Shown one piece after another: positions 13,095-62,106 of a stretch of 64,000 bases of DNA (its first letter is position 1; each line of letters opens with the position of its first letter). The translations under genes were made by a program, and so were the position numbers. Below the pieces are notes generated by a model, which saw only the letters and a list, made by a program, of their open reading frames with translations, did not search any database and was not told the DNA's origin. Location of the stretch: positions 1-64,000 of the forward strand of contig NZ_FNOZ01000020.1 of NCBI RefSeq assembly GCF_900107175.1. The letters are read 5' to 3'. This DNA comes from Modestobacter sp. DSM 44400 (GTDB taxonomy: Bacteria > Actinomycetota > Actinomycetes > Mycobacteriales > Geodermatophilaceae).

Positions 13095-13147
13095 GGCCCC
13101 CTGCAGGGTCCCGCCGCGAGCTTGCGAGCGGTGGGGGGCAGGGGGTG
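13095..13147 (-). repeat. Stop-proximal hairpin repeat, copy after rplI
   Basis: Read on the minus strand, the copy begins 4 nt after the rplI stop: outer arms CCCCCTG...CAGGGGG, inner arms CCCACCGC...GCGGCGGG, and the tip CTCGCAAGCTCG. It is closely related to the copies after ssb, ino1, the lipoprotein gene, dnaN and the DUF3566 gene. A terminator or RNA 3'-end role is likely. Confidence 0.8.
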
Positions 13148-13151
13148 TTTT

Positions 13152-13607
13152 TCAGCCCGAGACGACCTCGAGGGTCACCGCGGTGCTGACCTCCGGGTGC
13201 ACCCGCACCGTGACGGTGTGGGTGCCCGTGCTCTTGATGCTGCTGGGTAGCTCGATCCGGCGACGGTCGAGCTCCGGGCCACCGGCGGCGGTGACCGCGG
13301 CGGCCACGTCGGCGGTGGTGATGCGCCCGAAGAGGCGGCCGCCGTTCCCGGCGCGGGCCGGGAGGGTGACGGTCAGCCCGGACAGCCGGGCCGCGACCGA
13401 CTGGGCCTCTTCCAGCGTGCGCACGTCGCGGGCAGCGCGCGCCCGGCGCAGGCTCGCGATCTGCTTCTCCGCACCACGGGTCGACAGCAGCGCCAACCCA
13501 CGCGGGAGGAGGTAGTTGCGGGCGTACCCGCCCTTGACCTCGACGGTGTCACCGGAGGAACCCAGACCGGTGACCTCAGCAGTGAGAATGAGCTTCATCG
13601 TGCTCAT
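13152..13607 (-). CDS. rplI: 50S ribosomal protein L9
   Basis: 151 residues. The L9 signature MKLILTAEVTGLGSSGDTVEVKGGYARNYLLPRGLA lies at the N-terminus (rRNA-binding domain), followed by the long helix and the C-terminal domain with LFGRITTADVAAAV. ATG 13607 is 2 nt past the rpsR stop; ATG 13598, three codons later, would give the usual family N-terminus and is equally possible. It is the last gene of rpsF-ssb-rpsR-rplI and ends in the hairpin repeat. Confidence 0.95.
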   Translation of the reverse strand: MSTMKLILTAEVTGLGSSGDTVEVKGGYARNYLLPRGLALLSTRGAEKQIASLRRARAARDVRTLEEAQSVAARLSGLTVTLPARAGNGGRLFGRITTADVAAAVTAAGGPELDRRRIELPSSIKSTGTHTVTVRVHPEVSTAVTLEVVSG

Positions 13608-13609
13608 GA

Positions 13610-13846
13610 TCAGCGCGCCGTGGAGGTGTAGGGGAGCAGGGCCATCTCACGGCTGTTCTTCACGGCCACGGCGACGTCCCGCTGGTGCTGGCTGCAGTTG
13701 CCGCTGACGCGCCGTGCTCGGATCTTGCCGCGGTCGGAGATGAACTTCCGCAGCAGGGTGGTGTCCTTGTAGTCGACGTAGGTCGCCTTGTCCTTGCAGA
13801 ACTGGCAGACCTTCTTCTTCGGCTTGCGGATGGGGGGCTTGGGCAC
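13610..13846 (-). CDS. rpsR: 30S ribosomal protein S18
   Basis: 78 residues. GTG 13846 has AGGAGA 5 nt upstream. [16 protein letters not shown] carries the CxxC pair of the zinc-binding S18 type, followed by [12 protein letters not shown] and [20 protein letters not shown]. The four ligand positions are complete here (two Cys and the Cys/His near SGNCSQH), so this is the zinc-containing form rather than the zinc-free paralogue. Part of the rpsF operon. Confidence 0.96.
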
Positions 13847-13871
13847 GGGGTTCTCCTGGGAGATGTACAGA

Positions 13872-13933
13872 GGGGACGGCCCCTTCCAGGGCACCGCCAC
13901 GAGCTTGCGAGTGGTGGGGAGGAAGGGGTCCTT
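13872..13933 (-). repeat. Stop-proximal hairpin repeat, copy after ssb
   Basis: Starts a few nt after the ssb stop on the minus strand. Outer arms GGACCCCTTCC...GGAAGGGGCC, inner arms CCCACCAC...GTGGCGG, tip CTCGCAAGCTCG. It separates ssb from rpsR inside the ribosomal operon, so it may cause partial termination or set an internal RNA end rather than ending the operon. Confidence 0.8.
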
Positions 13934-13935
13934 CT

Positions 13936-14442
13936 TCAGAAGGGTGGTTCGTCGCTGGACGCCGGCGGGGTCGACCACGGGTCGCTGGACCCGCCGCCGC
14001 TGCCGGAGCTGCCACCGGAGCCGCCGCCGAAGCCACCGCCCGAGCCGCCACCGAACCCGCCGCCGCCACCCTCACCGCGCTGGGCCTTGGTGACCTTCGC
14101 GGTGGCGTAGCGCAGGGACGGGCCGATCTCGTCGACCTCGAGCTCGATGACGGTGCGCTTCTCGCCTTCCTTCGTGTCGAAGGAACGCTGCTTGAGGCGA
14201 CCGGAGACGATCACCCGCGAACCGCGGGTGAGGGACTCGGCGACGTTCTCCGCCGCTTGCCGCCACACGTTGCAGCGCAGGAAGAGCGCCTCGCCGTCCT
14301 TCCACTCCGAGGACTGACGATCGAACGTCCGCGGGGTGGAGGCGACGGTGAAGTTGGCGACGGCCGCGCCGGACGGCGTGAACCGGAGCTCCGGGTCCGA
14401 CGTCAGGTTGCCGATGACGGTGATGACCGTCTCGCCAGCCAT
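13936..14442 (-). CDS. ssb: Single-stranded DNA-binding protein
   Basis: 168 residues. An OB fold with [19 protein letters not shown] and [27 protein letters not shown] precedes a Gly-rich disordered linker ([17 protein letters not shown]) and the acidic tip SSDEPPF that recruits partner proteins. The fold is the homotetramer type. Located between rpsF and rpsR as in most bacteria, 2 nt from the rpsF stop. Confidence 0.97.
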
Positions 14443-14444
14443 GG

Positions 14445-14735
14445 TCAGTGGACCTCGGGCCGCATCAGCTTGGTGCGCAGCACCGACTCGTTGAGGTTCA
14501 GCTGCCGGTCCAGCTCCGCCACGGCGGAGGGCTCGGCGTTGATGTCGATGACGGCGTAGATGCCCTCAGGACGCTTGTTGATCTCGTAGGCCAGGCGACG
14601 CCGGCCCCAGATGTCGACCTTGCCGATGCTGCCGCCACGGCTGGTGACGACGGACAGGAACCGGTCCAGGCTCGGAGCGATGGTCCGCTCCTCGAGCTCG
14701 GGGTCGAGGATGACCATCAGTTCGTAATTGCGCAC
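14445..14735 (-). CDS. rpsF: 30S ribosomal protein S6
   Basis: 96 residues, starting at GTG 14735 with an AGGAGG site 11 nt upstream. [20 protein letters not shown], the [26 protein letters not shown] core and the C-terminal [11 protein letters not shown] match bacterial S6. First gene of the rpsF-ssb-rpsR-rplI operon; S6 and S18 form a complex in the 30S platform. Confidence 0.97.
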
Positions 14736-14908
14736 GGAGAACCCCACCTCCTCTGGTCTCAGCGGCTGCAGAGGATCTGCAGCAGGAGGGCTGTGCATGC
14801 GTCGCGCGCCCGAGCAGGCGGGTTGCCAGCTGCGGTCGCGCACCCGACAGGCTACCAGCGAGCCCGGCAGGTCCGCCGGTGAGCTGGGCGGATGCCCCGG
14901 CGACCCGG

Positions 14909-15288
14909 TCAGCGCGAGGCGCGCTGGAGCCGCACGCCGCGGACGAGGGCCGAGGAGACACCGGTCAGCGCGAGGAGGGCCGCCAGCGCCGGCGCGGTCA
15001 GCCCGGCGCCCGGACCCGGGCCGGCGGCATCGGGGGAGACCTCGCTGCCGAGGCGCCGTCGTGGTCGCCCAGCACACCGCCGCTGCCGGAGGAGCTGCGG
15101 CCCGGACCCTGGCCCGGGACGACGGAGTCGCCCGGCGCGGACACCGAGGACGAGGTGGGCGCCGCGCGGCCTCCGGGGCGGGGGCGGCGGGCGGCGGGGG
15201 CACCACCGCCGGGGCTTGCCCGGAGGGCGGGCACGGTGATCGGCGGCGGGGACGGCAGGTTCACCGATGGGCAGCGGCTCGTCGGCAC
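14909..15288 (-). pseudogene. Remnant of a Pro/Ser-rich membrane-anchored protein, frameshifted
   Basis: At the end of this gap the minus strand encodes [20 protein letters not shown] followed by [11 protein letters not shown] and a stop at 14909-14911, a good C-terminal membrane anchor with a basic tail. The upstream Pro/Ser/Gly-rich part ([18 protein letters not shown] ... [10 protein letters not shown]) lies in a neighbouring frame, and a third frame near 15290 gives [14 protein letters not shown], which looks like the start of a mature secreted protein. At least one and probably two shifts have broken the gene, and no signal peptide remains. Function unknown. The rpsF promoter should also lie in the rest of this gap (14736-14908). 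Confidence 0.4.
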
Positions 15289-15380
15289 TGACGGCTCCTA
15301 CCGGTGAGGAGAACCCGGGTCACGTCGGAGAACGATCATGGACCTCGGCGATACGGCCGCACCCCGGGGAAGTGGCGAAC

Positions 15381-15386
15381 TACTGT
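15381..15386 (+). promoter_or_regulatory. -10 element of a leaderless promoter (endonuclease IV gene)
   Basis: TACTGT lies 7 nt before the ATG at 15394, so transcription would begin at or next to the start codon; no ribosome site is seen. Confidence 0.55.
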
Positions 15387-15393
15387 CCCGGGG

Positions 15394-16206
15394 ATGGCGA
15401 ACCACGCGGTCGGGGTCCATGTCGGACCTGGCCTGACCGAGGAGAACGAGCTCCTGAACGGCGGGCCGCTCGCCCGGGCCGCCGAGATGGACGCCGACGG
15501 AGTGCAGGTGTTCCTGGCCGACCCACAGGGCTGGACGGCGCCCGAGCCCCGCCCGGACGCCGCGGATCTGCTCGCCGGCGACGTGGCCGTGTTCGTGCAC
15601 GCCCCCTACGTGCTCAACCTCGCCTCGACCAACAACCGGATCCGCATCCCCAGCCGCAAGCTGCTCGGCCAGCACGCGCGGGCCTCGGTGGCGATCGGGG
15701 CCCGCGCGATGGTCGTGCACGGTGGCCACGTGCTGGCCAAGGACGACCCGGCGGCCGGGGTCGACAACTGGCGCAAGACCTTCGCCCGGCAGGCGGAGTC
15801 CGGCGGTTTCGGGCTGCCGGTGCTGATCGAGAACACCGCCGGCGGCGACAACGCGATGGCCCGCGAGCTGGGCGCGCTGGACCGGTTGTGGGAGGCGGTC
15901 GGGGAGTTCGACGCCGGCTTCGTGCTGGACACCTGCCACGCCTGGGCCGCCGGGTGGGACCTGACCCGGGTGGTCGCCGACGTCCGGGCGATCACCGGCC
16001 GGATCGACCTGGTGCACCTGAACAACAGCCGGGACCCGGCCGGCTCCGGCCGCGACCGGCACGCCCCGCTGGGTGAGGGCGAGATCCCGCTGGAGCTGCT
16101 GCTCGAGGTCGGCCGCGCCGCGGACGCCCCGATCGTGCTGGAGACCCCGGGAGACGCAGCGAGCCACGCCGCCGAGGTGGCGATGCTGCGCAGGGCGCTG
16201 AGCTGA
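15394..16206 (+). CDS. Endonuclease IV-like AP endonuclease (xylose isomerase-like TIM barrel)
   Basis: 270 residues. VGVHVG at the first strand, VFVHAPYVLNLAS, MVVHGGHV, LIENTAGG, FVLDTCHAWAAGWD, IDLVHLNNSRDP and IVLETPG give the zinc ligands (His, Glu, Asp) of the Nfo/AP2Ec fold in the right order. It cuts DNA at abasic sites during base-excision repair. The start is leaderless (TACTGT 7 nt upstream). Convergent with the GT87 gene and separated from it by a strong two-way terminator. Confidence 0.85.
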   Translation: MANHAVGVHVGPGLTEENELLNGGPLARAAEMDADGVQVFLADPQGWTAPEPRPDAADLLAGDVAVFVHAPYVLNLASTNNRIRIPSRKLLGQHARASVAIGARAMVVHGGHVLAKDDPAAGVDNWRKTFARQAESGGFGLPVLIENTAGGDNAMARELGALDRLWEAVGEFDAGFVLDTCHAWAAGWDLTRVVADVRAITGRIDLVHLNNSRDPAGSGRDRHAPLGEGEIPLELLLEVGRAADAPIVLETPGDAASHAAEVAMLRRALS

Positions 16207-16210
16207 CCCA

Positions 16211-16274
16211 GGGTTGAGCCGCCTGCGCGACTGATGGACCGGGTCATGACCCGGTCGGCCGGGCGGCTCAACCC
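16211..16274. terminator. Bidirectional terminator between endonuclease IV and GT87 genes
   Basis: Outer arms GGGTTGAGCCGCC (16211-16223) and GGCGGCTCAACCC (16262-16274) are perfect; inside lies the 20-bp palindrome GACCGGGTCATGACCCGGTC (16237-16256). The GT87 stop codon at 16268-16270 is inside the outer arm. No T-run follows on either side. Confidence 0.75.
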
Positions 16275-17767
16275 ACGGCGCCGACCCTCGATCGTCGCGA
16301 GACGACGACCCGATCCGGGGCGTGGTCCAGCACGCCACCAGCCGGGTCGTCGGTGCCGGGCCAGCTCTGCCGCACCCGGTCGTGCTCGGGCTGCCAGACG
16401 TCGCGCGCCACCAGCGCCATCAGGACGACGACTGCGACGTCGCGCACCCCGACGGCGAACAGGAACCACTCGACGCCGATGCCCTTGTTGTCCGTGCCCA
16501 GGTACCAGAGCAGCCGCGGCACCCACAGCAGCGCCTCGGTGGCCTGCCACAACAGCAGCGACCGCCAGTGCGGGCGGGCCAGTACGGCCAGCGGCAGCAG
16601 CCACAGTGAGTACTGCGGGCTCCACACCTTGTTCACCAGCAGGAAACCGGCCACCAGCAGGAACGCCAGCTGGGCCACCCGGGGGCGCCGGGGGGCGAGC
16701 AGCGCCAGCGCCGCCACTGCGGCGGCGAGCACGAGCAGTGCGCCGGCGACCACCGCGTTGAGCACCGACGGCGACTGTCCCTCCGCCAGCGGTCCGTCCA
16801 GGATCCGGTTGTCGGTGACGGTGAGCGCGATGTTCCACAGCGTGTCCGGGTCGGCCGGCCGGCTGCCGTTGAGGGTGAAGAAGCGGGTCCAGTTCTCCGG
16901 CGCCAGGACGGCGATCGGCACGTTCACCACCAGCCACGCCACCGCGGCACCCAGCGCCGCGCCCGCCCACGTGCGGAGCCGCCCGGCCCGCAGGCACAGC
17001 ACGAACAGCACGCCCAGCAGCAGCACGGGGTACAGCTTCGCGGCCGTGCCCAGCCCGATCAGCACGCCGGCCAGGACCGGGTGCCGCCGGGCCCAGGCCC
17101 ACATGCCCAGCGACGCGAGCGCGACGGCGAACAGGTCCCAGTTGGTGAAGGCGTGCACGAACAGAAGCGGCGACAGCCCGACCATGGCCGCGTCCCAGGG
17201 CCGCCGTCCCGACAGCCCGAGCACCGCGCGCGTGGTCAGTAGGGCGCAGGCCGACAGCAGCAGGCAGGTGACTACGTAGTAGCTCTCGACCGGCACCACC
17301 GACGGCAGCGGACCGACCGCTTCGGCCACGGTGTCGTAGCGGTAGGCGAGTTCTGCGGCCACCCCCATGAACGCGCCGGTCAGCACCGGGTACTCCACCT
17401 TCGAGTCCAGGTAGGGCACCTGCCCGGTGTCCAGGCCGTGCAATCCGAACAGCGGCACCGTGTCGGAGTAGCAGAAGTGCGTGTACTGCTTGGAGCCGGT
17501 CCAGTTGCCGTCGGCGCAGGGCGCCTGCTTGACCCAGGCGACGGCGAGCACCAGCACGGTGAACAGCAGGCACACCCGAAGCGGCGTCCAGAACAGCGCC
17601 CGCCCGGTGACCGCGTGCCGGCCCCACGGCCCGCCCACCAGCTCGCTGGCCTGCGCCGCGACCGGGTCGTTCCAGGTCGGGACGACGCGGTCGGGGCCGG
17701 GAACGGCGGCGGGCCCGCCGCCCGGCTGGTCGGCCGGGACGGACGGGCCCGTCGTCGTGCTGCTCAT
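16268..17767 (-). CDS. GT87-family polyprenyl-phosphate-dependent mannosyltransferase (membrane)
   Basis: 499 residues with about 10-11 membrane helices. The long first periplasmic loop contains DLDTGQVPYLD-like sequence (GLDTGQVPYLDSKVEYPVLTG), with the acidic residues of GT-C enzymes, and VKVWSPQYSLWLLPL late in the protein is shared with the PimE/GT87 group. It probably adds mannose to lipids or glycans on the outer face using polyprenyl-phosphate-mannose; the acceptor is unknown. It lies next to the class A PBP gene as in mycobacteria (Rv0051 next to ponA1), 22 nt downstream on the same strand. Confidence 0.8.
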   Translation of the reverse strand: MSSTTTGPSVPADQPGGGPAAVPGPDRVVPTWNDPVAAQASELVGGPWGRHAVTGRALFWTPLRVCLLFTVLVLAVAWVKQAPCADGNWTGSKQYTHFCYSDTVPLFGLHGLDTGQVPYLDSKVEYPVLTGAFMGVAAELAYRYDTVAEAVGPLPSVVPVESYYVVTCLLLSACALLTTRAVLGLSGRRPWDAAMVGLSPLLFVHAFTNWDLFAVALASLGMWAWARRHPVLAGVLIGLGTAAKLYPVLLLGVLFVLCLRAGRLRTWAGAALGAAVAWLVVNVPIAVLAPENWTRFFTLNGSRPADPDTLWNIALTVTDNRILDGPLAEGQSPSVLNAVVAGALLVLAAAVAALALLAPRRPRVAQLAFLLVAGFLLVNKVWSPQYSLWLLPLAVLARPHWRSLLLWQATEALLWVPRLLWYLGTDNKGIGVEWFLFAVGVRDVAVVVLMALVARDVWQPEHDRVRQSWPGTDDPAGGVLDHAPDRVVVSRRSRVGAVG

Positions 17768-17789
17768 GCGCTCAGTCTGCCCGGCCGGG

Positions 17790-20297: not shown

Positions 20298-20435
20298 GCA
20301 GTGGGCCCTTCCTCGAGTCGTGGAGTGACGCGGCGCGGGTGGCGCGACGGCGCGCTGCACCCCAGGATGACGTGCTCAGCTGTGTGCCGGCCGCAGCGTG
20401 CGACCAGCGGCCCGGTGCGGCGCCGGACGGGACGA

Positions 20436-20849
20436 CTACTCGGTCGCCGTCCGGCGGCGGTTCCTGCGCGGTGCGCGGCCCGGGGTGGGCTCGGCACCGA
20501 GAACGTATGAGGACACCAGGTGGTTCCAGCCGCAGCCGCGGCACACCTCGACGGTGTAGACGGAGAACTCCTCCTGCATGGCGTCCATCCGGGCGAGTTC
20601 CGGCCCGGTCTTGGCCTGCCCGGACACCGGGCCCAGCCCGTCACCGTAGACGTAGCTGACCTGCGTGAGCCGCTCCCGACGGCAGACCGGGCACGGCGCG
20701 TCGGTCGCCTCCCCGTGGTACTTCGCCGCTCGGGAAAGGTACGGGCCGGCGTCGCACACCTCGAACAGGCCGGTGCGCCCGGAGTGCACGTCGGCCAGGA
20801 CAGCGCGCCGCTGCAGCGCGTAGTCGACCACCGACCGTCGTCCGGGCAC
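20436..20849 (-). CDS. DUF5318 zinc-ribbon protein
   Basis: 137 residues from GTG 20849. [19 protein letters not shown] and [18 protein letters not shown] are the conserved N-terminal motifs; CPVC and CRGC pairs form a likely zinc ribbon. The family is found beside ponA in actinobacteria (Rv0049 in M. tuberculosis) and its function is unknown. Same strand as ponA, with a 138-nt gap. The C-terminal tail is Arg-rich. Confidence 0.85.
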
Positions 20850-20956
20850 GGCGCCAATGTACGCAAATCGAGCCCTCCAGTGGCTGCTCCGCTGGACCTG
20901 ACGCGGGAGGCCGGGGGCTACCAGAGCCGGCTCGGCTTGCGCCACGACAGCTCATC

Positions 20957-20979
20957 CGATGTATCGTCTCGATACATCG
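20957..20979. promoter_or_regulatory. PadR operator palindrome
   Basis: A perfect inverted repeat, CGATGTATCG - TCT - CGATACATCG, 23 bp long, lies 24 nt before the padR start. It is the kind of TGTATCG-type dyad bound by actinobacterial PadR proteins, so autoregulation is likely. It may also act on the divergent DUF5318 gene. Confidence 0.8.
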
Positions 20980-21002
20980 ACCGATGGAGAGGCGGAGGTG
21001 GT

Positions 21003-21647
21003 GTGCTCGAGCTCGCCATCCTCGGCCTGCTGCAGCAGTCGCCGATGCACGGTTACGAGCTGCGCAAGCAGCTGGCCGCCGTGCTCGGAGGGCTGCGCAG
21101 CATCTCCTACGGCTCGCTGTACCCCGCGCTGAAGCGGATGCACGCTGCCGGGCTCATCGCCACCGAGGAACCCGACCCGCGCGCCCCGCTGCCGGCCGAC
21201 GCCCCGCCGTTGACCGGCAGGCGCGGGAAGGTGGTCTACACGATCACCGCCGAGGGCAAGGAGCGCTTCCACGACCTGGTCAGCCAGACCGGTCCGGAGG
21301 CCTACGACGACGAGGGGCGCTTCGGCGTACACCTCGCCTTCTTCCGGCACACCGCGGCCGACGTCCGACTGCGCATCCTCGAGGGGCGCCGCCGCACCGT
21401 CGAACGGCAGCGGGACGGCCTGCGGGCCTCCCTCGGCCGCACCCGCGCCCGGTTGGACCGCTACACCCTCGAGCTGCAGCGGCACGGGATGGACTCGGTG
21501 GACCGGGAGGTCCGCTGGCTGTCCGAGCTGATCGACCGCGAGCTGGCCGACCCCGCCGGGGTCGACCGGGACCCCGACCGGAACAGCGCCGTCCCGGGCC
21601 AGGACCCGCCGCCCGGGGGAGACCCCGGCGCGGACCGCACCGCGTGA
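21003..21647 (+). CDS. PadR-family transcriptional regulator
   Basis: 214 residues from GTG 21003, with GGAGG 5-6 nt upstream. The winged helix is [24 protein letters not shown] ... [18 protein letters not shown], then a wing with [13 protein letters not shown]. The C-terminal half is a long helical dimerisation region ([20 protein letters not shown]) and a disordered tail. The palindrome upstream is its probable own operator. The gene sits 50 nt before ino1 as in M. tuberculosis (Rv0047c-ino1), so it may control inositol synthesis. Confidence 0.9.
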
Positions 21648-21697
21648 CCACCACACAACGACCGGACCCGCACGGGTCCGCCGCAGGAGGAGAGCCC

Positions 21698-22777: not shown

Positions 22778-22781
22778 GGAA

Positions 22782-22819
22782 GCACCCCGCACGCTCGGGG
22801 CGGTGCCCTGGAGGGGCCG
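22782..22819 (+). repeat. Degenerate stop-proximal repeat after ino1
   Basis: GCACCCCGCACGCTCGGGGC followed by GGTGCCCTGGAGGGGCC resembles the 3' part of the copy after ssb (CACCACTCGCAAGCTCG...GGTGCCCTGG), with a decayed tip. It begins a few nt after the ino1 stop. Confidence 0.5.
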
Positions 22820-22823
22820 CACC

Positions 22824-22908: not shown

Positions 22909-22914
22909 TGTCCC

Positions 22915-23691
22915 ATGCCGTTCCGCCGCCTCCCGCTGCTGTCGCTGGTATCGCTGCTGCTGGTCGCCCTGCTCGCCGGCTGTGGGAGCGACGCCGCCAC
23001 CGAGCGGATGCCGGGCGACCCGATCACCGCCGACGAGGCCGAGGTGCTCTCCGGCCTGCTGTACCGGGACTTCAAGGCCGGCGGGGCCGACTTCGTGGTC
23101 AGCGCGCCCTACGCCGAGAACGCCGTCGTCACGCTGACCGGCGAGATCGACTTCGCGCAGGGCATCGGCCGGGCCCAGGGCGTGACCAGCTACGGCGACG
23201 AGCGCCCGGACGACACCCGCACGCTGTTCTTCACCACCCAGGACCTCTGGTACGGCGACGTCCCCGGCCTGTCGGACGCCCTGGCCGCCGCCGGGCTACC
23301 GGACGCGAGCTACGTGCGCCGCCCGATCGCCACCACCAGCGCCACCGGCACGGCCTCGCTGATCGACGTGCTCGTGCAGCTCGTGCCGCGGCTGTCCGCC
23401 CGCGCCGCCGACGACCCGCGCTCGTTCCTGGAGCGCGACTACACCTGGCAGGGCACCAAGTCGGTCAACGGGGACCTCGCCTCACTGTTCCGCAGCAGCA
23501 CCGGGACGACGATCGCGGTCGCCGCCGACTCCCACCTGCTGCTGCAGTACGTGACCCGGCTGCCCGACCAGGACTTCGACGTGACGATCACGCTCACCGA
23601 CCACGGAGAGCGGGCGATCGAGCTGCCCAGCGACGCCGAGACCGTCACAGCCGCCGACCACCCGGAGATCGCCGACGCCATCGGCGTCTGA
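22915..23691 (+). CDS. Hypothetical lipoprotein
   Basis: 258 residues with a clean signal peptide and lipobox (LLVALLAGC, Cys23 or so). The mature part is rich in short strands: LLYRDFKAGGADFVVSAPYA, VVTLTGEIDFAQGIGRAQG, LFFTTQDLWYGDVPG, and a second half with DVTITLTDHGERAIELPSD. This shape recalls LppX/LprG-type lipid-binding or 'DUF2291-like' lipoproteins, but no family can be named with confidence. It is a single-gene unit with a leaderless start and a hairpin repeat directly after the stop. Confidence 0.7.
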   Translation: MPFRRLPLLSLVSLLLVALLAGCGSDAATERMPGDPITADEAEVLSGLLYRDFKAGGADFVVSAPYAENAVVTLTGEIDFAQGIGRAQGVTSYGDERPDDTRTLFFTTQDLWYGDVPGLSDALAAAGLPDASYVRRPIATTSATGTASLIDVLVQLVPRLSARAADDPRSFLERDYTWQGTKSVNGDLASLFRSSTGTTIAVAADSHLLLQYVTRLPDQDFDVTITLTDHGERAIELPSDAETVTAADHPEIADAIGV

Positions 23692-23695
23692 GAAA

Positions 23696-23758
23696 GGACC
23701 CCCCTACCCCCCACCGCTCGCGAGCTCGCGGCGGGGCCCTGCAGGGGGGCCACCGTCC
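23696..23758 (+). repeat. Stop-proximal hairpin repeat, copy after the lipoprotein gene
   Basis: Starts 4 nt after the stop. Outer arms GGACCCCCCT...AGGGGGGCC (extended by GGAC...GTCC), inner arms CCCACCGC...GCGGCGGG, tip CTCGCGAGCTCG. Together with the next copy and the hairpin at 23810 it forms a row of three stem-loops. Confidence 0.85.
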
Positions 23759-23802
23759 TCCTCACCCCTCGCAAGCGCGGGGCGCGCCTCGGGACGGGGC
23801 CC
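23754..23802 (+). repeat. Stop-proximal hairpin repeat, second subtype
   Basis: CGTCCTCCTCACCCCTCGCA ... GGGGCGCGCCTCGGGACGGGGCC closely matches the copy after trxB (CGTCCTTCTCACCCCTCGCA ...). It overlaps the end of the first copy, so the two subtypes are arranged in tandem here. Confidence 0.75.
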
Positions 23803-23809: not shown

Positions 23810-23850
23810 ACAAGAGGGGGCGGCCTCTTCCCCAGGCCGCCCCCTCTTGT
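23810..23850. terminator. Perfect 16-bp hairpin, bidirectional terminator
   Basis: ACAAGAGGGGGCGGCC pairs perfectly with GGCCGCCCCCTCTTGT around a 9-nt loop. It separates the lipoprotein gene from the convergent yqgE gene. Confidence 0.85.
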
Positions 23851-34466: not shown

Positions 34467-35483
34467 GTGCGCCCCGTGACGAACGCCCAGCCCGCGCCCG
34501 GGCCCGCGACCTGGACCGAGAGCCCGCCGGCCATCCCCCCGGCCGAACAGGACGGCGTCCGTGACCTGGTGATCATCGGGTCCGGACCGGCCGGGTACAC
34601 CGCTGCCACCTACGCCGCGCGAGCCAACCTGCACCCGCTGGTGTTCGAGGGCACGCAGTTCGGCGGTGCGCTGATGACCACCACCGAGGTGGAGAACTTC
34701 CCCGGGTTCCCGGAGGGCGTGCAGGGTCCGCAGCTGATGGACGACATGCGCACCCAGGCGGAGCGCTTCGGCGCCGAGCTGGTGGCCAAGGACGTCACCG
34801 AGGTCGACCTCACCGCCAACCCCAAGGTCATCACGATCGGCGACGAGGTCGTCCGGGCGCACGCGGTGATCGTGGCCACCGGCTCGAAGTACCGCTACCT
34901 CGGCCTGGACAACGAGCAGCGACTGTTGGGCCACGGCGTCTCCGCCTGTGCCACCTGTGACGGCTTCTTCTTCCGCGACCAGGACATCGTCGTGGTCGGC
35001 GGTGGCGACTCCGCGATGGAGGAGGCCACGTTCCTGACCCGCTTCGCCAAGTCGGTCACCGTCGTCCACCGCCGTCCCGAACTGCGTGCCTCGAAGATCA
35101 TGGTCCAGCGCGCCCAGGACAACGAGAAGATCCGCTGGGCGCTGGGCAAGCAGGTGACCGAGGTGCACGGCGACAACGCCGTCTCCGCGGTGGAGCTGAC
35201 CAACGTGACCACCGGCACCACCGAGGAGCTGCCGGTCACCGGCATGTTCGTGGCGATCGGCCACGACCCGCGCACCGAGCTGTTCGTCGGCCAGTTGAAA
35301 CTGGACGACGAGGGGTATGTGGTCGTCGACCACCCGACCACCCGCACCGACGTGGACGGCGTCTTCGCTTGTGGCGACGTCGTCGACCACATCTACCGAC
35401 AGGCCATCACCTCCGCGGGCACCGGGGCCTCGGCCGCGATCGACGCCGAGCGGTGGCTCGCCGACACCTTCGGCGAGCGCTGA
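34467..35483 (+). CDS. trxB: Thioredoxin reductase
   Basis: 338 residues, 25-30 longer at the N-terminus than E. coli TrxB. FAD site [20 protein letters not shown], redox-active CATCDG (two Cys), NADPH site [16 protein letters not shown] with HRRPELRAS, and the C-terminal [21 protein letters not shown]. It passes electrons from NADPH to the thioredoxin encoded 128 nt downstream. The start is leaderless. In mycobacteria sigM and its anti-sigma gene lie between mviN and trxB; they are absent here. Confidence 0.97.
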
Positions 35484-35489
35484 CCAAGT

Positions 35490-35541
35490 GCCCCGTCCTT
35501 CTCACCCCTCGCAAGCTCGGGGCGAGCCTCCGGACGGGGCC
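35490..35541 (+). repeat. Stop-proximal hairpin repeat, copy after trxB
   Basis: Begins 6 nt after the trxB stop. Outer arms CCCCGTCC/GGACGGGG, inner arms CACCCC/GGGGCGAG, tip CTCGCAAGCTCG. Same subtype as the copy at 23754-23802. It lies between trxB and trxA, so it probably separates the two transcripts. Confidence 0.8.
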
Positions 35542-35611
35542 GAACGGGCATAGACGGGCTGCCCCACAAGTTCTACCCACCGACCCACCCGCGACCACAG
35601 GGAGCATCACC

Positions 35612-49168: not shown

Positions 49169-50329
49169 ATGAAGTTCCGGGTGGCACGAGAGGTGCTCGC
49201 CGAGGCGGTCGCCTGGACGGCGCGCAGCCTGCCGCCGCGTCCCTCGGTGCCGGTGCTGGCCGGGATCATGTTGGAGGTCGAGGGCAACCAACTGTCGGTG
49301 TCCGGCTTCGATTACGAGGTCTCGGCGCGGTCGGAGATCGATGTTCAGTCCACCGAGGGCGGCCGTTCCCTGGTCCCCGGCCGGCTGCTCGCCGAGATCA
49401 CCCGCGCGCTCCCGCCGCACCCGGTGGAGATCGTCGCCGAGGGCGCCCGGTTGTCGATCAGCTGCGGCAACGCGAAATTCAGCCTGCCGACGCTGCCGGT
49501 GGAGGACTACCCGTCCCTGCCGTCGATGCCCTCCACCGCAGGGGTCGTCGACAGTGACGCCTTCGCCGAGGCGGTCAGCCAGGTCGCCGTGGCCGCCGGC
49601 CGGGACGACACCTTGCCGATGCTGACCGGCGTCCGGCTGGAGATCGAGGACGACCTGGTCACACTGGCCGCCACCGACCGCTACCGGCTCGCGGTGCGCG
49701 AGTTCGCCTGGCGCCCGGAGACCCCTGGGTTGTCCGCGGCCGTGCTGGTCCCGGCGCGCACCCTGGCCGACGCGGCGAAGACGCTGACCAGTGGCCCCGA
49801 GGTCGTTCTCTCGTTGTCCTCCGGCGGCTCGGGCGAGGGCATCCTGGGCCTGTCGGGCAAGGACCGGCAGACCACGACCCGGCTGCTGGACGCCGAGTTC
49901 GTCAAGTACCGGGCGATCATGCCCAGCGAGTCGACCTCCAGCGCGATGCTGCCGGTGGCGCTCTTCACCGACGCGGCCAAGCGCGTCGCCCTGGTCGCCG
50001 AGCGGGGCACCCCGCTGCGTTGCGAGTTCACCCCGGGGCAGGTCACGCTGCGCGCCGGTGGCACCGACGACGAGGGTCAGGCGGAGGAGCGCTGCGACGT
50101 CGACTTCGACGGGGACGCGCTGACCATCGGCTTCAACCCGACATTTCTGCTCGACGGGCTGGCCGCGGTGCACACCGACCGGGCGCGGCTGGACTTCACC
50201 ACCGCGCTGAAGCCCGCCGTCCTCTCCGGCGTCGCAGAGCCGGCCGCCGATGACGGTGGCGAGCAGCGCCCGGCCGAGCGCCCGGGCAGCTACCGCTACC
50301 TGATCATGCCGGTGCGACTGCCCGGCTGA
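49169..50329 (+). CDS. dnaN: DNA polymerase III beta sliding clamp
   Basis: 386 residues. MKFRVAREVLAEAVAWTARS, RPSVPVLAGIMLEV, FSLPTLPVEDYPSLP, ATDRYRLAVREF and the C-terminal YRYLIMPVRLPG define the three clamp domains and the hydrophobic partner-binding pocket. ATG 49169 lies just past oriC. A stop-proximal hairpin repeat follows, separating dnaN from gnd. Confidence 0.98.
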   Translation: MKFRVAREVLAEAVAWTARSLPPRPSVPVLAGIMLEVEGNQLSVSGFDYEVSARSEIDVQSTEGGRSLVPGRLLAEITRALPPHPVEIVAEGARLSISCGNAKFSLPTLPVEDYPSLPSMPSTAGVVDSDAFAEAVSQVAVAAGRDDTLPMLTGVRLEIEDDLVTLAATDRYRLAVREFAWRPETPGLSAAVLVPARTLADAAKTLTSGPEVVLSLSSGGSGEGILGLSGKDRQTTTRLLDAEFVKYRAIMPSESTSSAMLPVALFTDAAKRVALVAERGTPLRCEFTPGQVTLRAGGTDDEGQAEERCDVDFDGDALTIGFNPTFLLDGLAAVHTDRARLDFTTALKPAVLSGVAEPAADDGGEQRPAERPGSYRYLIMPVRLPG

Positions 50330-50333
50330 AGTA

Positions 50334-50394
50334 GGACCACCCTTCCCCCCACGCCTCGCAAGCTCGGCGCGGGCCCCTGAAGGGTGGCCGTTCC
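50334..50394 (+). repeat. Stop-proximal hairpin repeat, copy after dnaN
   Basis: Begins 4 nt after the dnaN stop: outer arms GGACCACCCTTC / GAAGGGTGGCC, inner CCCACGC/GCGCGGG, tip CTCGCAAGCTCG. Compensatory differences from other copies (CACCC/GGGTG here, CCCCC/GGGGG at 23696) keep the stem paired. Confidence 0.85.
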
Positions 50395-54200: not shown

Positions 54201-54270
54201 GCAGGCCGCCCTGAGCAGCGCCGCAGGCGGGGACGCCGGCGCCCTGCCCACCGCCGGGCTGCGGGAGCTG

Positions 54271-55998: not shown

Positions 55999-56007
55999 GC
56001 CACCCGC

Positions 56008-56021
56008 GTTCCACGTGGAAC
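56008..56021. promoter_or_regulatory. parS site 3
   Basis: GTTCCACGTGGAAC lies 9 nt after the ABC exporter stop, about 14 kb from sites 1 and 2 and on the other side of oriC. Confidence 0.92.
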
Positions 56022-56265
56022 GAGAGCGGCACCAGCGCCCCGAGGACGGTGTGTCGACGTCCGGGCCAACACGGGTGGTGGTCGATGTGTCGGGAGGGGC
56101 TCTCGAGCGACGTCAGGGCGTGGATGGCGGCGCCCTGTGGTGCAGACCCGGTAGGCTGGGGGAGTCACACCGCCAGCAGCCCGCTGAGCGCCGTTCTGCG
56201 CCTCCGTCGACCCCGTCGTCGGTCCTGCGCGCCCGGCGCCTGGCTGCGCGAGAGAAGGGCCCCAC
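56022..56265. promoter_or_regulatory. gyrB leader region
   Basis: 244 nt without a gene. It should contain the gyrB promoter; TAGGCT at about 56153-56158 in GGTAGGCTGGG is a possible -10 element. GAAGGG about 9 nt before GTG 56266 is the likely ribosome site. Confidence 0.45.
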
Positions 56266-58308
56266 GTGGTCGCTCGACCCAGCACTCCGGCAATGGAGAA
56301 CGCCTACTCCGGCAGCTCCATCACCGTCCTCGAGGGGCTGGAGGCGGTCCGCAAGCGCCCCGGCATGTACATCGGCTCCACGGGTGAGCGCGGGCTGCAC
56401 CACATGGTGCAGGAGGTGGTCGACAACTCCGTCGACGAGGCGCTCGCCGGTTGGTGCGACACCGTCCGGGTCACCCTGCTGGCCGACGGCGGCGTGCGGG
56501 TGGAGGACAACGGCCGTGGCATCCCGGTCGACATGCACCCGGTCGAGAAGCGGCCGACCCTCGAGGTCATCATGACCACCCTGCACGCGGGTGGGAAGTT
56601 CGACGGCAAGAGCTACGGCGTCTCCGGTGGCCTGCACGGCGTCGGCGTCACCGTGGTCAACGCGCTGTCCAGTGAACTGGACGTCGAGATCTGGCGCGAC
56701 GGTGTCGAGTGGCACCAGCACTACACCGAGAACAAGCCCGGCCCGCTGGAGCGCTTGGGCGAGACGACCAAGCGCGGCACCGCAATCACGTTCTGGGCCG
56801 ACCCGTCGATCTTCGAGACAACGGTTTACTCCTTCGACACGATCAGCCGCCGGCTGCAGGAGATGGCCTTCCTCAACAAGGGCCTGACCATCATCCTGCG
56901 CGACGAGCGGCCCGGTCAGAGCAAGGCTGAGACCGGCCTGGCCGACGAGATCCCGCTGGTCGAGACCGCCGTGGCCCCCGGTCATGAGGAGGAGGCGTTC
57001 GAGCCGACCGAGATCACCTACCGGTACGACGGTGGCCTGGTCGACTACGTCGCGCACATCAACCGCCGCAAGACTCCGATCCACCGCTCCGTGATCGGCT
57101 TCTCCGCCGACGGGGTCGGCAAGAACGACACGGCGATGTCGCTGGAAGTGGCGATGCAGTGGTCGGACGCCTACTCCGAGTCGGTGCACACCTTCGCCAA
57201 CATCATCAACACCCACGAGGGCGGCACCCACGAGGAGGGCTTCCGTGCGGCGCTGACCTCGATCGTCAACCGCTACGCGGTGGACAAGAAGATCCTCAAG
57301 GAGAAGGACGACAAGCTCACCGGCGACGACATCCGCGAGGGTCTGGCCGCGATCGTCTCGGTGAAGCTCGGCGACCCGCAGTTCGAGGGCCAGACGAAGA
57401 CCAAGCTGGGCAACACCGAGGTCAAGGGCTTCGTGCAGCGGGTCTGCAACGACCAGATCGGGCACTGGTTCGAGGCCAACCCCGCCGAGGCGAAGGTCAT
57501 CATCACCAAGGCGGCCTCGGCCGCCCGGGCCCGTCGCGCCGCGCAGGACGCCCGCAAGCTGGCCCGCAAGAGCCTGCTCAGCGTGAGCGGGCTGCCGGGC
57601 AAGCTGTCGGACTGCCGCTCGACCGACCCGCGCAACTCCGAGGTCTACATCGTCGAGGGGGACTCGGCCGGCGGCTCGGCCAAGTCCGGTCGTGACTCGA
57701 TGTTCCAGGCGATCCTGCCCATCCGTGGCAAGATCATCAACGTCGAGAAGGCGCGCATCGACCGGGTGCTGAAGAACACCGAGGTCCAGTCCATGATCAC
57801 CGCCTTCGGTACCGGCATCCACGACGAGTTCGACCTGTCGAAGCTCCGGTATCACAAGATCGTGCTGATGGCCGACGCCGACGTCGACGGCCAGCACATC
57901 CGCACGCTGCTGCTGACCCTGCTGTTCCGCTTCATGCGCCCGCTGGTCGAGGCTGGCCACGTCTACCTGGCCCAGCCCCCGCTGTACAAGATCAAGTGGG
58001 GGGCGAAGTTCGGTGACGAGTACGTCTATACCGACAAGGAGAAGGAAGCCGTCCTCAAGGTCGGCGCCGAGGCCGGTCGGAAGATCAAGGACGACGCGAT
58101 CCAGCGGTTCAAGGGCCTGGGCGAGATGGACGCCACGGAGCTGTGGGAGACCACGATGAACCCCGAGACCCGCATCCTGCTGCAGGTCACGCTGGAGGAC
58201 GCCGCGGCGGCCGACGAGCTGTTCAGCATCCTGATGGGCGAGGACGTCGAGGCCCGCCGGAGCTTCATCACCCGCAACGCCCGCGACGTCCGGTTCCTGG
58301 ACGTCTGA
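56266..58308 (+). CDS. gyrB: DNA gyrase subunit B
   Basis: 680 residues. GHKL ATPase: [45 protein letters not shown] and [18 protein letters not shown]. The TOPRIM domain has [14 protein letters not shown] and [19 protein letters not shown], and the tail includes [22 protein letters not shown] 56266 adds nine residues before [13 protein letters not shown] 56293 is an alternative start. Supplies ATP turnover for negative supercoiling with GyrA. Confidence 0.97.
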
Positions 58309-58379
58309 CACCTCCGGTGTAGGCAAGGAACGGCTTCGCCGTACTGGAAACTTATTGACAGAGCACCGCCTCCGGCGGG

Positions 58380-58435
58380 AGGTGGATGAATGCACCGGCC
58401 ACTCGCAAGCTCCCGGCCTGCGGATTCATCCACCT
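58380..58435. other. gyrB-gyrA intergenic hairpin with shared CTCGCAAGCTC tip
   Basis: Arms AGGTGGATGAAT (58380-58391) and ATTCATCCACCT (58424-58435) are perfect and enclose CCGGCC...GGCC pairing around ACTCGCAAGCTC. It sits 28 nt before gyrA, so it could act on gyrA translation or end gyrB RNA. TTGACA at 58355-58360 is a candidate -35 element of a gyrA promoter. Confidence 0.75.
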
Positions 58436-58463
58436 CTGTGCACCGACTTGTGGAGAACCAGAC

Positions 58464-60932
58464 GTGACCGAGACCCCCAGCCGCGACCGCGTCGAGCCGG
58501 TCGACCTCCAGCAGGAGATGCAGCGCAGCTACATCGACTACGCGATGTCGGTGATCGTGGGCCGCGCGCTGCCCGAGGTGCGCGACGGCCTGAAGCCGGT
58601 GCACCGCCGCGTGCTGTACGCGATGTTCGACCAGGGCTTCCGCCCCGACCGTGCGACGGTGAAGTGCGCCCGCGTCGTCGGCGAGGTGATGGGCAATTAC
58701 CACCCGCACGGTGACTCGTCGATCTACGACGCCCTGGTGCGGCTGGCCCAGCCCTGGTCGATGCGCTACCCGTTGATCGACGGCCAGGGTAACTTCGGGT
58801 CACCGGGCAATGACCCTGCGGCAGCGATGAGATATACTGAGGCTCGCCTGACTCCGCTGGCCATGGAGATGCTGGCCGACATCGACGAGGACACCGTCGA
58901 CTTCCAGCCGAACTACGACGGTAAGAACCAGGAACCGCTGGTCCTGCCGGGCCGCATTCCGAACCTGCTGGTCAATGGCTCGGCCGGCATCGCCGTCGGC
59001 ATGGCGACCAACATGCCGCCGCACAACCTGCGCGAGGTGGCGGCCGCCGTCTTCTGGCTGCTCGAGCACCCCGAGGCCGAGGCCGAGGAGGCCCTCACCG
59101 CGTGCATGGATCGGATCAAGGGCCCGGACTTCCCGACCCACGGCCTGATCGTCGGCCGGGATGGCATCGAGGATGCCTACCGGACCGGCCGCGGGTCGGT
59201 GCGGATGCGCGCGGTGGTCACCGTCGAGGAGGACGCCCGCGGCCGGGTCCAGCTCGTGGTCACCGAGCTGCCCTACCAGGTCAACCCGGACAACCTTGCC
59301 GAGGCGATCGCCGACGGCGTCCGCGACGGCCGGCTGCAGGGCATCTCCGAGATCGCCGACGAGTCCAGCGACCGGGTGGGCCGCCGGCTGGTCATCACCC
59401 TGCGCCGCGACGCCGTCGCGAAAGTGGTGTTGAACAACCTCTACAAGCACACCCAGCTGCAGACCACCTTCGGCTGCAACATGCTCTCCATCGTCGACGG
59501 CGTGCCGCGCACGCTGCGGCTGGACGAGCTCGTGCGGCACTGGGTAGCCCACCAGGTCGAGGTCATCGTCCGGCGCACCCGCTACCGGCTGCGCAAGGCC
59601 GAGGAGCGCGCGCACATCCTGCGCGGCTACGGCAAGGCCCTCGACCAGCTCGACGCCGTCATCGCGCTCATCCGGCGCAGCGAGTCCGCCGACGCCGCCC
59701 GCAGCGGGCTGATGGAGCTGCTGGACGTCGACGAGATCCAGGCGATCGCCATCCTGGACCTCCAGCTGCGCCGGCTGGCCGCCCTGGAGCGGCAGCGGAT
59801 CCTGGACGAGCTGGCCGAGATCGAGGCCCGAATCGCCGAGTTGCAGGCGATCCTGGACTCCCCGGAGCGGCAGCGGCAGATCATCCACGACGAGCTGGCC
59901 GAGATCGTCGAGAAGTACGGCGACGACCGGCGCACCCAGTTCGTGGCCCACGACGGTGACGTGTCCATGGAGGACCTCATCGCCGAGGAGGAGGTGGTCG
60001 TCACGATCACCCGCACCGGCTACGCCAAGCGCACCAAGAGCGACCTTTACCGCAGCCAGCGCCGCGGCGGGAAGGGCGTTCTGGGCGCCGCGCTCAAGCA
60101 GGACGACCTGGTACAGCAGTTCTTCGTGGGCTCCACCCACGACTGGATCCTCTTCTTCACGAACAAGGGCCGGGTCTACCGGGCCAAGGCCTACGAGCTG
60201 CCTGAGGCGGCGCGCACCGCCCGCGGGGCGCACGTGGCGAACATCCTGGCCTTCCAGCCCGACGAGAAGATCGCCCAGGTCATCCAGATCAAGGACTACA
60301 CGGTGACGCCGTACCTCGTGCTGGCCACCGCCAAGGGGCAGGCCAAGAAGACCCGGCTGACCGACTTCGACTCCCCCCGCACCGGCGGCGTCATCGCGAT
60401 GAACCTCCGCGAGGGCGACGAGCTGGTCGGCGCGGCGCTGATCAGCCCCGATCAGAACCTGCTGCTGGTGACCCGCAAGGCGATGTCAATCTGCTTTAAG
60501 GCCGACGACGAGCAGCTGCGGCCGATGGGCCGCGCGACCGAGGGCGTGCGCGGCATCTCGCTGGCCGACGACGACACCCTGCTGTCGATGATCGTCGTCA
60601 CCGAGGGCGTCGACGTCCTGGTCGCCACCGAGGGCGGCTACGCCAAGCGCACCGGCATCGAGCACTACCCGGAGCAGAACCGCGGCGGCAAGGGAGTGCT
60701 GACCGCCGACCCCAAGGCCCGCAAGGGCGTGCTGGTCGGTGCGCTTGCGGTGGTGCTCGGCGACGAGCTGTACGCGATCACCTCCGGTGGTGGCGTGATC
60801 CGGACGCCGGTGAACGGCGTCCGGCACACCCGGGACCGCGCCACCATGGGCGTCAAGCTCATGAACTTGCCGGAAGACGTCTCGATCGTGGCGATCGCGC
60901 GTACGACGGACAACGACGAGCCCGACGCCTAG
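58464..60932 (+). CDS. gyrA: DNA gyrase subunit A
   Basis: 822 residues from GTG 58464, with GGAGA 8 nt upstream. [20 protein letters not shown], the winged-helix/quinolone region [20 protein letters not shown], active-site Tyr124 in [14 protein letters not shown], and the C-terminal beta-propeller with QRRGGKGV (GyrA box) and its repeats. The residue at the M. tuberculosis Ala90 place is Ser. The codons around Tyr124 are unusually AT-rich (AGA TAT ACT). Works with GyrB in a heterotetramer. Confidence 0.98.
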
Positions 60933-61079
60933 GGTGGGGCGGATGCCAGACCGGCTGCCGGGGCGACCTCGCCCCGGCGCCGGGCTGCGCGAGGACCACG
61001 GCAGTGACCGGTGCGGCGTCGCCTGGACGGCGTGGGCGGCAACGAAGCGGCGCGGGCCGCTGGGGGACAGGAGACAGGC

Positions 61080-62033
61080 ATGAGCGACCGGACGCGAGGT
61101 TCGGTGCGCACCGGCTCCCGCGAGGGTGACGGAGCGGCCGGCGGTCTACCGGAGGCTGCCATCCCCGGCGACGGTGACGGCGGTGCGACCACGGCCGGCC
61201 CGGCTGCGAAGACGCCGAAGGCTGCTCCCGCCGCAGAAGCGGCGCGCGGAGCCGCCCCGCAGCCCTCGGTCGACGGCACGCAGGTCATCACCCCCGACAG
61301 TCCCCCGTCCGGAGTCTTCGCCGGCGCCGCGCCCGCACCGTCGTCTCCTCCGGCGGCCGACGGGAACGCCTCGGCCCGCACCGTCGCGCCGTCGAGTCCA
61401 CTGGTCCCGCCGCCGGGTGCGCCGGCGGGCCGGGCTTCCGGCTCCGCCGCCGGTGCCGGCTGGTCGCCGGGTGCGCGCGGGCAGGCTCCGGTCCCTCCGG
61501 CCGCCCCGGTCGGCCCCGAGGGCACCCAGGCGGTCCCGCTGCCCGCGGCCGGGAGTCGGCCAGCGGGTGCGTCCGGTCGTCCGCCGGGAAGCGGGGCGGG
61601 AAGCCCGTCGACGCCGACCGCCACCACTCCCAAGGAGCACGGTCGTGGGCGTGGGGTCAGCCGTGGCCCGCGCCGGGCCCGGCTGCAGCTGCGGCACATC
61701 GACACGTGGTCGGCGCTGAAGATCTCCCTGGTGGTCTCCATCGCGCTGTTCTTCGTGTGGATGGTGGCCGTCGGCCTGCTGTTCGGCGTGCTGAACGGCC
61801 TGGGGGTCTTCCAGACCCTCAACGACCTGTTCGGCCAGCTGGGCAGCGTCTCCGGCGGCGACGGCGGCAACAGCGAGGTCATCACCGCGGGCGTGGTCTT
61901 CGGCGGGGCAGCCGTCCTCGGCGCCATCAACGTCGTGCTGCTGACCGCGCTGTGCACGGTCGGGGCGGTCGTATACAACCTGTGCTCGGACCTCGTCGGT
62001 GGCCTGGAGGTCACCCTCGCGGAACGCGAGTGA
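61080..62033 (+). CDS. DUF3566 transmembrane protein
   Basis: 317 residues. The first 195 are Pro/Ala/Gly-rich and disordered. The DUF3566 domain starts at RLQLRHIDTWSALKISLVVS and has two helices (LVVSIALFFVWMVAVGLLFG; GAINVVLLTALCTVGAVVYN) around LNGLGVFQTLNDLFGQLG. It lies after gyrA in nearly all actinobacteria (Rv0007); the function is unknown, with an envelope or division link suspected. A hairpin repeat follows the stop. Confidence 0.92.
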   Translation: MSDRTRGSVRTGSREGDGAAGGLPEAAIPGDGDGGATTAGPAAKTPKAAPAAEAARGAAPQPSVDGTQVITPDSPPSGVFAGAAPAPSSPPAADGNASARTVAPSSPLVPPPGAPAGRASGSAAGAGWSPGARGQAPVPPAAPVGPEGTQAVPLPAAGSRPAGASGRPPGSGAGSPSTPTATTPKEHGRGRGVSRGPRRARLQLRHIDTWSALKISLVVSIALFFVWMVAVGLLFGVLNGLGVFQTLNDLFGQLGSVSGGDGGNSEVITAGVVFGGAAVLGAINVVLLTALCTVGAVVYNLCSDLVGGLEVTLAERE

Positions 62034-62040
62034 CGAAGTA

Positions 62041-62106
62041 GAAGGGCCCGCTGCCCCATACCGCTCGCGGGCTCGCGGCGGGCCCCTGCAGGAAGGCCGT
62101 CGATCC
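62041..62106 (+). repeat. Stop-proximal hairpin repeat, copy after the DUF3566 gene
   Basis: Begins 7 nt after the stop: GGGCCCGCTGCCCCATACCG, tip CTCGCGGGCTCG, then CGGCGGGCCCCTGCAGGAAG. More diverged arms than other copies, but the same order of parts. It separates the gyrase unit from the tRNA genes. Confidence 0.75.

Follow-up and report, generated by a model that had tools for sequence, protein, structure and literature searches.

Hairpin repeats anchored behind stop codons in Modestobacter sp. DSM 44400 and other Geodermatophilaceae: a candidate family of REP-like mobile repeats

The first 64,000 nucleotides (nt) of contig NZ_FNOZ01000020.1 of Modestobacter sp. DSM 44400 (the whole stretch analysed here, called the window below) contain related hairpins that an initial annotation had placed behind the stop codons of rplI, ssb, ino1, a "lipoprotein" gene, trxB, dnaN and a DUF3566 gene. 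A covariance-model scan and the sequence itself show all of these copies to be present, with the ino1 copy decayed as stated. They belong to a dispersed family of structured repeats that keep their pairing through compensatory changes, differ in sequence between their two strands, start at a preferred distance from stop codons, nest within one another, and come and go between related genomes. We lean, without great confidence, towards reading this family as mobile repeats similar to repetitive extragenic palindromes (REPs) that decorate gene ends and have no recognisable REP-associated tyrosine transposase (RAYT).

Each unit consists of a short tag, approximately G-N-N-G-A-A, followed by an imperfect palindrome of mostly 54–56 nt. 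The gene-strand consensus reads TGA-NN-AA-GG-A-(8-9 nt arm)-CC-CCC-A-CCGC-TCGCNNGCTC-GCGG-C-GGG-NCCCT-(arm)-CC, in which an outer helix of GG/CC plus 8–9 base pairs (bp) is followed by an asymmetric internal loop and an inner helix of 7–8 bp. Two length classes exist, both arms shortening together. The initial annotation had described these outer and inner arms, together with a tip common to all copies; the tip, C-TC-GC-NN-GC-TC-G, is variable at its two central bases. The tag follows the pattern GNNG, with G at –6 in 209 of 253 copies and at –3 in 172 of 253.

The arms covary. Pairing was counted on alignments fitted to R1, a covariance model of 66 positions and 18 pairs made from 11 copies of the DSM 44400 genome; these are 11 of 31 seed rows and represent one length class, the others having been dropped by hand or omitted as shorter. 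R1 also holds six 5' flank columns, mostly GAAGAA, and mildly favours a 4-nt spacing. In 143 distinct matches from the DSM 44400 genome, 94.5% of stem cells are paired. Two-sided changes affect 330 cells; shuffles average 92, with none of 500 reaching 330, and sliding the partner column gives no more than 44. Copies from named relatives behave alike, with 94.7% of cells paired and 219 two-sided changes compared to 43 in shuffles; in slid controls pairing is at most 58%. This bears out the compensatory arm changes that had been proposed from a few copies.

The repeat is abundant. Its exact core, CTCGCAAGCTCG, occurs 49 times in the 5.02-Mb genome, and the reversed control not at all; a looser word with two free central bases, CTCGCNNGCTCG, occurs 204 times versus 49 for its control. 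Within the window, a search that allows the core two mismatches finds no excess (33 found, 40 expected); the excess resides in the exact core and in the structure. Genome-wide, R1 gives at least 148 matches at E ≤ 0.1 (150 candidates scored), and this number is a floor, re-scanning of the retrieved regions having yielded a few further copies. A dispersed family beyond chance, as first suspected, is what these counts reveal. By comparison with two relatives whose matches were listed in full (74 and 72 at E ≤ 1e-5), the DSM 44400 genome is copy-rich.

Among the genomes searched, the repeat family is found essentially only in Geodermatophilaceae. A covariance-model scan of genome and family had been suggested by the initial annotation; it gave enrichment after stop codons, and matches in 101 of the 112 Geodermatophilaceae genomes searched, spread over 9 of 12 genera (46 candidates scored per genome). 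A scan of the genus matched all 23 genomes, DSM 44400 among them. The 11 genomes without a match are nine from three genera, with assemblies of 2.4–3.7 Mb, plus G039 and G067; copies are also few in G055 (2), G045 (4) and G114 (4). The 16 genomes searched from the order's other families contain no match. In a sample of the class searched with strict filters, 3 of 394 genomes match: DSM 44400, a second member of Geodermatophilaceae, and one further genome with two weak matches. Named loci were found by a pattern containing AAGGACC, and 80 of 114 stretches were scored with R1; the 80 listed, of at least 114, all carry the names Geodermatophilus, Modestobacter, Blastococcus or Klenkia.

Gene calls came from a simple caller that over-extends some starts, and only stops were used. 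The census of the DSM 44400 genome covers 142 of the 148 matches, 139 of which lie outside called genes. The anchoring at stops had been recognised from the window, with a distance of 4–10 nt; the anchoring stands, and the range proved too loose. Exactly 4 nt separate the copy from a same-strand stop in 72 of 142 cases, and all 72 stops are TGA. Other spacers are 1 nt (10 copies, 9 with TGA), 5 nt (5 copies, TAG or TAA only) and 2 nt (2 copies, TAG). The 133 full-length named copies include 52 TGA and one TAG at 4 nt, seven TAG at 2 nt and four TAG at 5 nt, while background stop usage in the named stretches is 545 TGA, 54 TAG and 8 TAA. Of the 253 copies that have a GG foot, 123 show TGA at spacer 4. 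In the gene-based lists (DSM 44400 and named copies together), 124 spacer-4 TGAs are the stops of called genes and 8 have no assigned called gene. This pattern fits a tag whose G at –6 and –3 is shared with the G of the stop codon.

Orientation follows the upstream gene, as had been proposed. For 137 copies with both neighbours called, the gaps are codirectional in 79 cases, convergent in 52 and divergent in 6, and the upstream gene lies on the same strand as the copy in 120. Within codirectional gaps, 68 copies are sense and 11 antisense (p = 4e-11). By our own count, with the stop at +4 to +6, pairing after a 4-nt spacer would begin at +11 from the first base of the P-site codon. This is the mouth of the mRNA channel, where hairpins are reported to meet the mRNA entry (PMC7282821).

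The two strands of the element are not equivalent. The mRNA strand has an A·C mismatch, mismatches at the tip and a bulged A. Read on the complementary strand, the first of these turns into a G·T wobble and the tip into tandem G·A pairs, and the bulged A can be absorbed by a G–U shift. The conserved inner mismatch, scored in 209 of 267 copies caught by a regular expression, is A–C in 173, G–C in 15 and A–T in 15, so 203 of the 209 pair on the complementary strand (as G–T, G–C or A–T). Across the copies of the DSM 44400 genome, A–C cells outnumber G–U cells on the mRNA strand by 62 to 24 (p = 5e-5; one variable inner pair left out). The complementary-strand tip, C-GA-GC-NN-GC-GA-G, forms tandem G–A pairs around a two-base loop, an arrangement that is unusually stable in DNA and RNA. 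Predicted RNA folds are more stable for the complementary strand in 233 of 241 distinct copies (mean 6.7 kcal/mol), and predicted DNA folds in 214 of 241 (mean 1.9). Five of the six full window copies favour it as well; the DUF3566 copy does not, and neither of its strands clearly beats shuffles (z –0.84 and 0.15). These predictions suggest that the complement of the upstream gene's strand folds better.

The initial annotation had interpreted the hairpins as a selected RNA element, such as a terminator, that spread as a sequence family. The elements are indeed structured, spread and enriched after stops; the idea of an ordinary intrinsic terminator of the upstream gene is not supported. A GC-rich hairpin just after the stop codon is a terminator trait, but no U-tract follows it on the mRNA strand: the longest T run in 12 nt is 0–1 in 215 of 267 copies and never exceeds 3. 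The better predicted fold of the other strand and the copy between ssb and rpsR likewise speak against an ordinary intrinsic terminator. A full terminator after ssb would be costly should rpsR, as gene order indicates, depend on the upstream promoter. Other roles, as a 3'-end stabiliser, a modulator of translation termination or a protein-binding site, may apply. A general caution is that both strands should be compared before repeated 3' hairpins are named terminators.

The complementary strand does carry a modest T-rich tail (CTTCTTCA), with score deciles of 1.7–2.9 versus 0–1.0 for the background and the mRNA strand; its conserved letters, TTCNNC, contain no U-run. Combined with the better fold of that strand, the tail raises the idea of an opposite-strand terminator that ends at the stop-codon complement and blocks convergent or antisense transcription entering the gene. 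Convergent gaps hold 52 of 137 copies, more than the roughly 28 expected from gap length (gaps taken from the copy-holding regions). However, a gene ends on that side for only 63 of 137 copies and the tail is short. In addition, the gene strand mostly has G at –3 and –6, which places C and not T in the tail and argues against selection for a U-tract. We find this explanation quite unlikely.

More weight, though still on the doubtful side, goes to a selected element of the 3' untranslated region (3'-UTR), the sense hairpin of which would protect the mRNA 3' end, aid Rho-dependent or other termination, or act on the ribosome at the stop codon, its spread being the copying of a useful module. The sense bias in all gaps and in codirectional ones, the exact 4-nt spacer (72 of 142 DSM 44400 copies and 53 of 133 full-length named copies), the in-frame TGA of called genes and the first pair at +11 all speak for such an element. 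E. coli REPs less than 16 nt from a stop are also reported to lower translation and stall ribosomes (PMC12306157), and five of the six full window copies have a sense hairpin that is more stable than its shuffles (z –2.0 to –3.3). Against it speaks that G–U wobbles are no commoner than A–C on the mRNA strand, that the hairpin has no U-tract, that a copy lies between ssb and rpsR, and that presence or absence varies at orthologous genes.

This variation is evident behind dnaN. In 30 family genomes, inspected by eye, the gene is followed by a full sense copy in 9, a decayed copy in 3, an antisense copy in 2, fragments in 1 and no element in 15, and the protein end is identical with and without it. 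Between dnaN and the next gene, a GGCGAGCACGATGG-like word recurs in many family genomes, with or without the repeat. Genomes G001 and G013, compared over 0.4 Mb each in aligned blocks that are mostly 93–97% identical, have 15 distinct element sites, of which 4 are common and 11 differ; one common site carries a compensatory C–G to T–A change. We considered that the element might supply the stop codon. This was rejected at dnaN and at nine of the 11 differing sites, because the stop keeps its position when the element is missing; of the other two sites, one has TGA versus TAG and one is nested.

A third genome, G004, covers six of seven queried sites, with remnant-like sequence at three, the copy missing in G013 at one, an unrelated perfect palindrome at one and, at the remaining one, an older copy whose tip received a nested copy in G001. 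This polarises four of the differing sites, as three apparent losses and one nested gain. Further nested copies occur at tips in the DSM 44400 and other genomes, and the former also contains two opposite-orientation pairs. Empty sites hold unrelated sequence or remnants in the element's stead, 0 to 101 nt long and in one case 895 nt, which leaves no cleanly definable insertion target; no target-site duplication is evident by eye in filled/empty pairs. Tandem arrays of the hairpin without its 5' tag are present at L137 3956–4389, L074 1626–1891 and L244 2501–2701. They comprise 4–9 hairpins, with up to nine units of 48 nt that are 97% alike in L137, and are probably slippage products.

The apparent losses among the polarised sites, the existence of decayed copies and the several family genomes with few or no copies could also be read as signs that the repeat is a mere relic: once mobile, now extinct and functionless, and seen after stops only because insertions elsewhere were purged. 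Purging alone, however, yields neither one exact spacer nor an in-frame TGA. The stems have also stayed paired despite numerous two-sided changes, and the three-genome comparison contains one nested gain. Of the explanations considered, this one seems to us very unlikely.

The closest known relatives by description are the GTAG REPs that go with a RAYT. Published REP units measure 20–40 bp with stems of 6–13 bp; they lie after genes and have a tag that can provide the stop codon, a dinucleotide between tag and stem (GTAG-1/2) and GC-N2-4-GC loops (GTAG-3), as described in PMC3733652. A Coxiella REP contains the same ten-letter tip, GAGCTTGCGA (PMC2817692). Our family shares with GTAG REPs more than 100 dispersed palindromes per genome, their place after genes in codirectional and convergent gaps (PMC3733652, PMC2817692, PMC8266576), a tag at the foot (degenerate here) that can supply a stop codon, a tag–stem dinucleotide as in GTAG-1/2, noncomplementary dinucleotides and a GC-N2-4-GC loop as in GTAG-3, dimers and clusters, and an irregular hairpin. 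The GTAG hairpin is reported to be recognised strand-specifically, whereas here strand asymmetry is seen only in sequence and predicted energy. The main anchor also differs, being TGA at a fixed 4 nt and not TAG. We file the family as REP-like and not as a GTAG REP because no RAYT was found in 112 family genomes, the unit is too long and the polarity of the tag differs.

Other systems resemble the family in part. CGTC-tagged REPs are likewise palindromic dispersed repeats, apparently without a dedicated transposase, but are described with shorter stems of 8–9 bp, AT pairs at the foot, CCA tails and mostly head–head dimers (PMC3733652). The TRIT and intrinsic terminator families of actinobacteria, to which PMC3526491 refers, are repeated GC-rich hairpins after stops in a high-GC actinobacterium; by description, the present family is set apart by its lack of an mRNA-strand U-tract, its mobile-like turnover and nesting, and its ssb–rpsR copy. 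We found no account of this repeat in the open papers, titles and beginnings of abstracts that were searched.

Integron attC sites are imperfect palindromes just behind a stop codon, and their bottom strand is the folded one. The likeness to attC is one of resemblance only, in the palindrome behind the stop and the better fold of the opposite strand; here, in contrast, copies are dispersed behind unrelated core genes.

Several observations weigh against the REP-like reading. The Y1/RAYT transposase domain PF01797 was found in 0 of 112 family genomes by a search that was positive in 5 of 14 controls; among 39 relatives it gave two matches, both in other families of the order. The HUH Y2 transposase PF04986 matched 1 of 112 family genomes, one without the element, in a weaker test (0 of 14 controls positive). 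At about 56 nt, with two helices and a large internal loop, the unit is longer than the 20–40 bp of published REPs. Its GNNG tag is degenerate, GTAG itself occurring in 13 of 245 copies, and the better-folding strand (that of the GA/GCTTGC tip) is opposite the tag, which is not so in the published REP. The strand asymmetry is also less clear than the DSM 44400 copies alone would indicate. Named copies have A–C and G–U cells at 37 to 23 (same inner pair omitted), which is not significant (p = 0.09). Dinucleotide shuffles, too, favour the complementary strand (853 of 964), by –3.8 kcal/mol compared with –6.8 for the real copies; more than half of the strand difference in RNA is therefore due to base composition. 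The in-frame anchoring at stops is sharper than random insertion would give. Finally, most polarised changes being losses, present mobility rests on the one nested gain and on the nested copies elsewhere.

If the family is REP-like nonetheless, its copies could spread by a strand-specific single-strand recombination process that lacks a recognisable RAYT, and deletion of the palindrome would remove them again. Copies would then persist mainly directly behind stops and in the sense orientation. The mRNA strand would still form a stable hairpin starting at the mouth of a ribosome that stands on the stop codon, and this sense hairpin could influence translation, termination or the stability of the 3' end. 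By analogy with E. coli REPs, which are reported to stall ribosomes when within 15 nt of a stop (PMC12306157), the most likely physiological consequence would be an effect on the terminating ribosome. A bolder version, which we regard as unlikely, is that an enzyme recognises the folded complementary strand and delivers the repeat to in-frame stops, next to the G of TGA or TAG. The result would be a module at gene 3' ends, specific to stop codons and common to the whole bacterial family, that lies against the terminating ribosome and keeps antisense transcription out of genes.

A RAYT accompanies the best-described REPs. A populous REP-like family across an actinobacterial family in which no RAYT was found means that the driver either has been lost or is one not yet recognised. 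Two questions become testable through the precise TGA-plus-4 anchoring and the structure of the opposite strand: what moves the repeats, and what a hairpin does at the mouth of a terminating ribosome in a high-GC bacterium.

The window, scanned by R1 with filters off, contains six full copies (53–90 bits), one partial and one decayed copy (Table 1); after the partial copy, the next-best match is at background (21.3 bits). The gene names rplI, ssb, rpsR, trxB, dnaN, DUF3566 and ino1 are backed by Pfam, and the gene at 22915–23691, called a lipoprotein gene in the initial annotation, has no Pfam match. The spacer is 4 in five full copies and 10 in the DUF3566 copy. The inferred GTG start of rpsR (13846) is 31 nt from the end of the ssb element (13878), and a ribosome-binding site is present within this stretch. 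Above the gathering score, Rfam recognised only two tRNAs and a thiamine pyrophosphate (TPP) riboswitch in the window, none on the repeat elements; around the dnaN copy, a single sub-threshold match at E ≤ 1 lies outside the element.

Table 1. Hairpin repeat copies in the 64,000-nt window
Copy	Position	Strand	Support	Details
rplI, full	13093..13153	(-)	R1 64.4 bits; Pfam Ribosomal_L9	Stop at 13152-13154; spacer AAAA; GG foot lost
ssb/rpsR, full	13874..13937	(-)	R1 75.1 bits; Pfam SSB + Ribosomal_S18	Junction TGA-AGAA-GGACC
ino1, decayed	22778..22818	(+)	Sequence; Pfam Inos-1-P_synth; absent from R1 matches	TGA-GGAAGCACCCC...GGGGCC; without 5' inner half
Gene 22915-23691, first copy, full	23690..23755	(+)	R1 81.0 bits	Junction TGA-GAAA-GGACC
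Gene 22915-23691, second copy, head-to-tail	23752..23801	(+)	R1 29.8 bits over 23756-23794, partial	GGA foot missing; directly adjoins first copy; outer limits set by eye
trxB, full, before trxA (35612)	35482..35545	(+)	R1 56.1 bits; Pfam Pyr_redox_2 + Thioredoxin	Degenerate foot
dnaN, full	50328..50393	(+)	R1 90.3 bits; Pfam DNA_pol3_beta + NAD_binding_2/6PGD	TGA-AGTA-GGACC; next gene 6-phosphogluconate dehydrogenase-like
DUF3566 gene, full, partly degenerate	62038..62102	(+)	R1 53.0 bits; Pfam DUF3566	10 nt after gene; extra TAG 2 nt before GG foot

Some neighbouring sequences deserve mention. From 50390 onward in the window, and at L219 2501–2700, a GTTCCAGCACGTCACC-like sequence and a 3' half-copy follow some copies, making a composite unit. 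A perfect inverted repeat of 17 bp (23810–23850) lies immediately 3' of the lipoprotein-gene pair, in the interval before a convergent gene, and looks like an ordinary bidirectional terminator. A different palindrome between gyrB and gyrA (58379–58436) has 22-nt arms that are 86% complementary and a related tip, CACTCGCAAGCTCC, which suggests that the tip also occurs in other hairpins. Elsewhere in the DSM 44400 genome, two copies (L007 and L013, both at about 1501; C51 and C84) sit in near-identical flanks, a longer duplicated segment that is perhaps an insertion sequence. Another repeat type, left out of the hairpin family, has CTCGCTGGCGCTCGTCGGC-like words beside palindromes such as CGTGAGCTCGCAAGCTCGCTCACG (L019, L020/L021 and L030; C92, C93 and C104) and is tandem on C93. 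Lastly, dnaB (10055–12664 of the window) encodes 869 amino acids with a LAGLIDADG match between its DnaB domain matches, and carries a probable intein.

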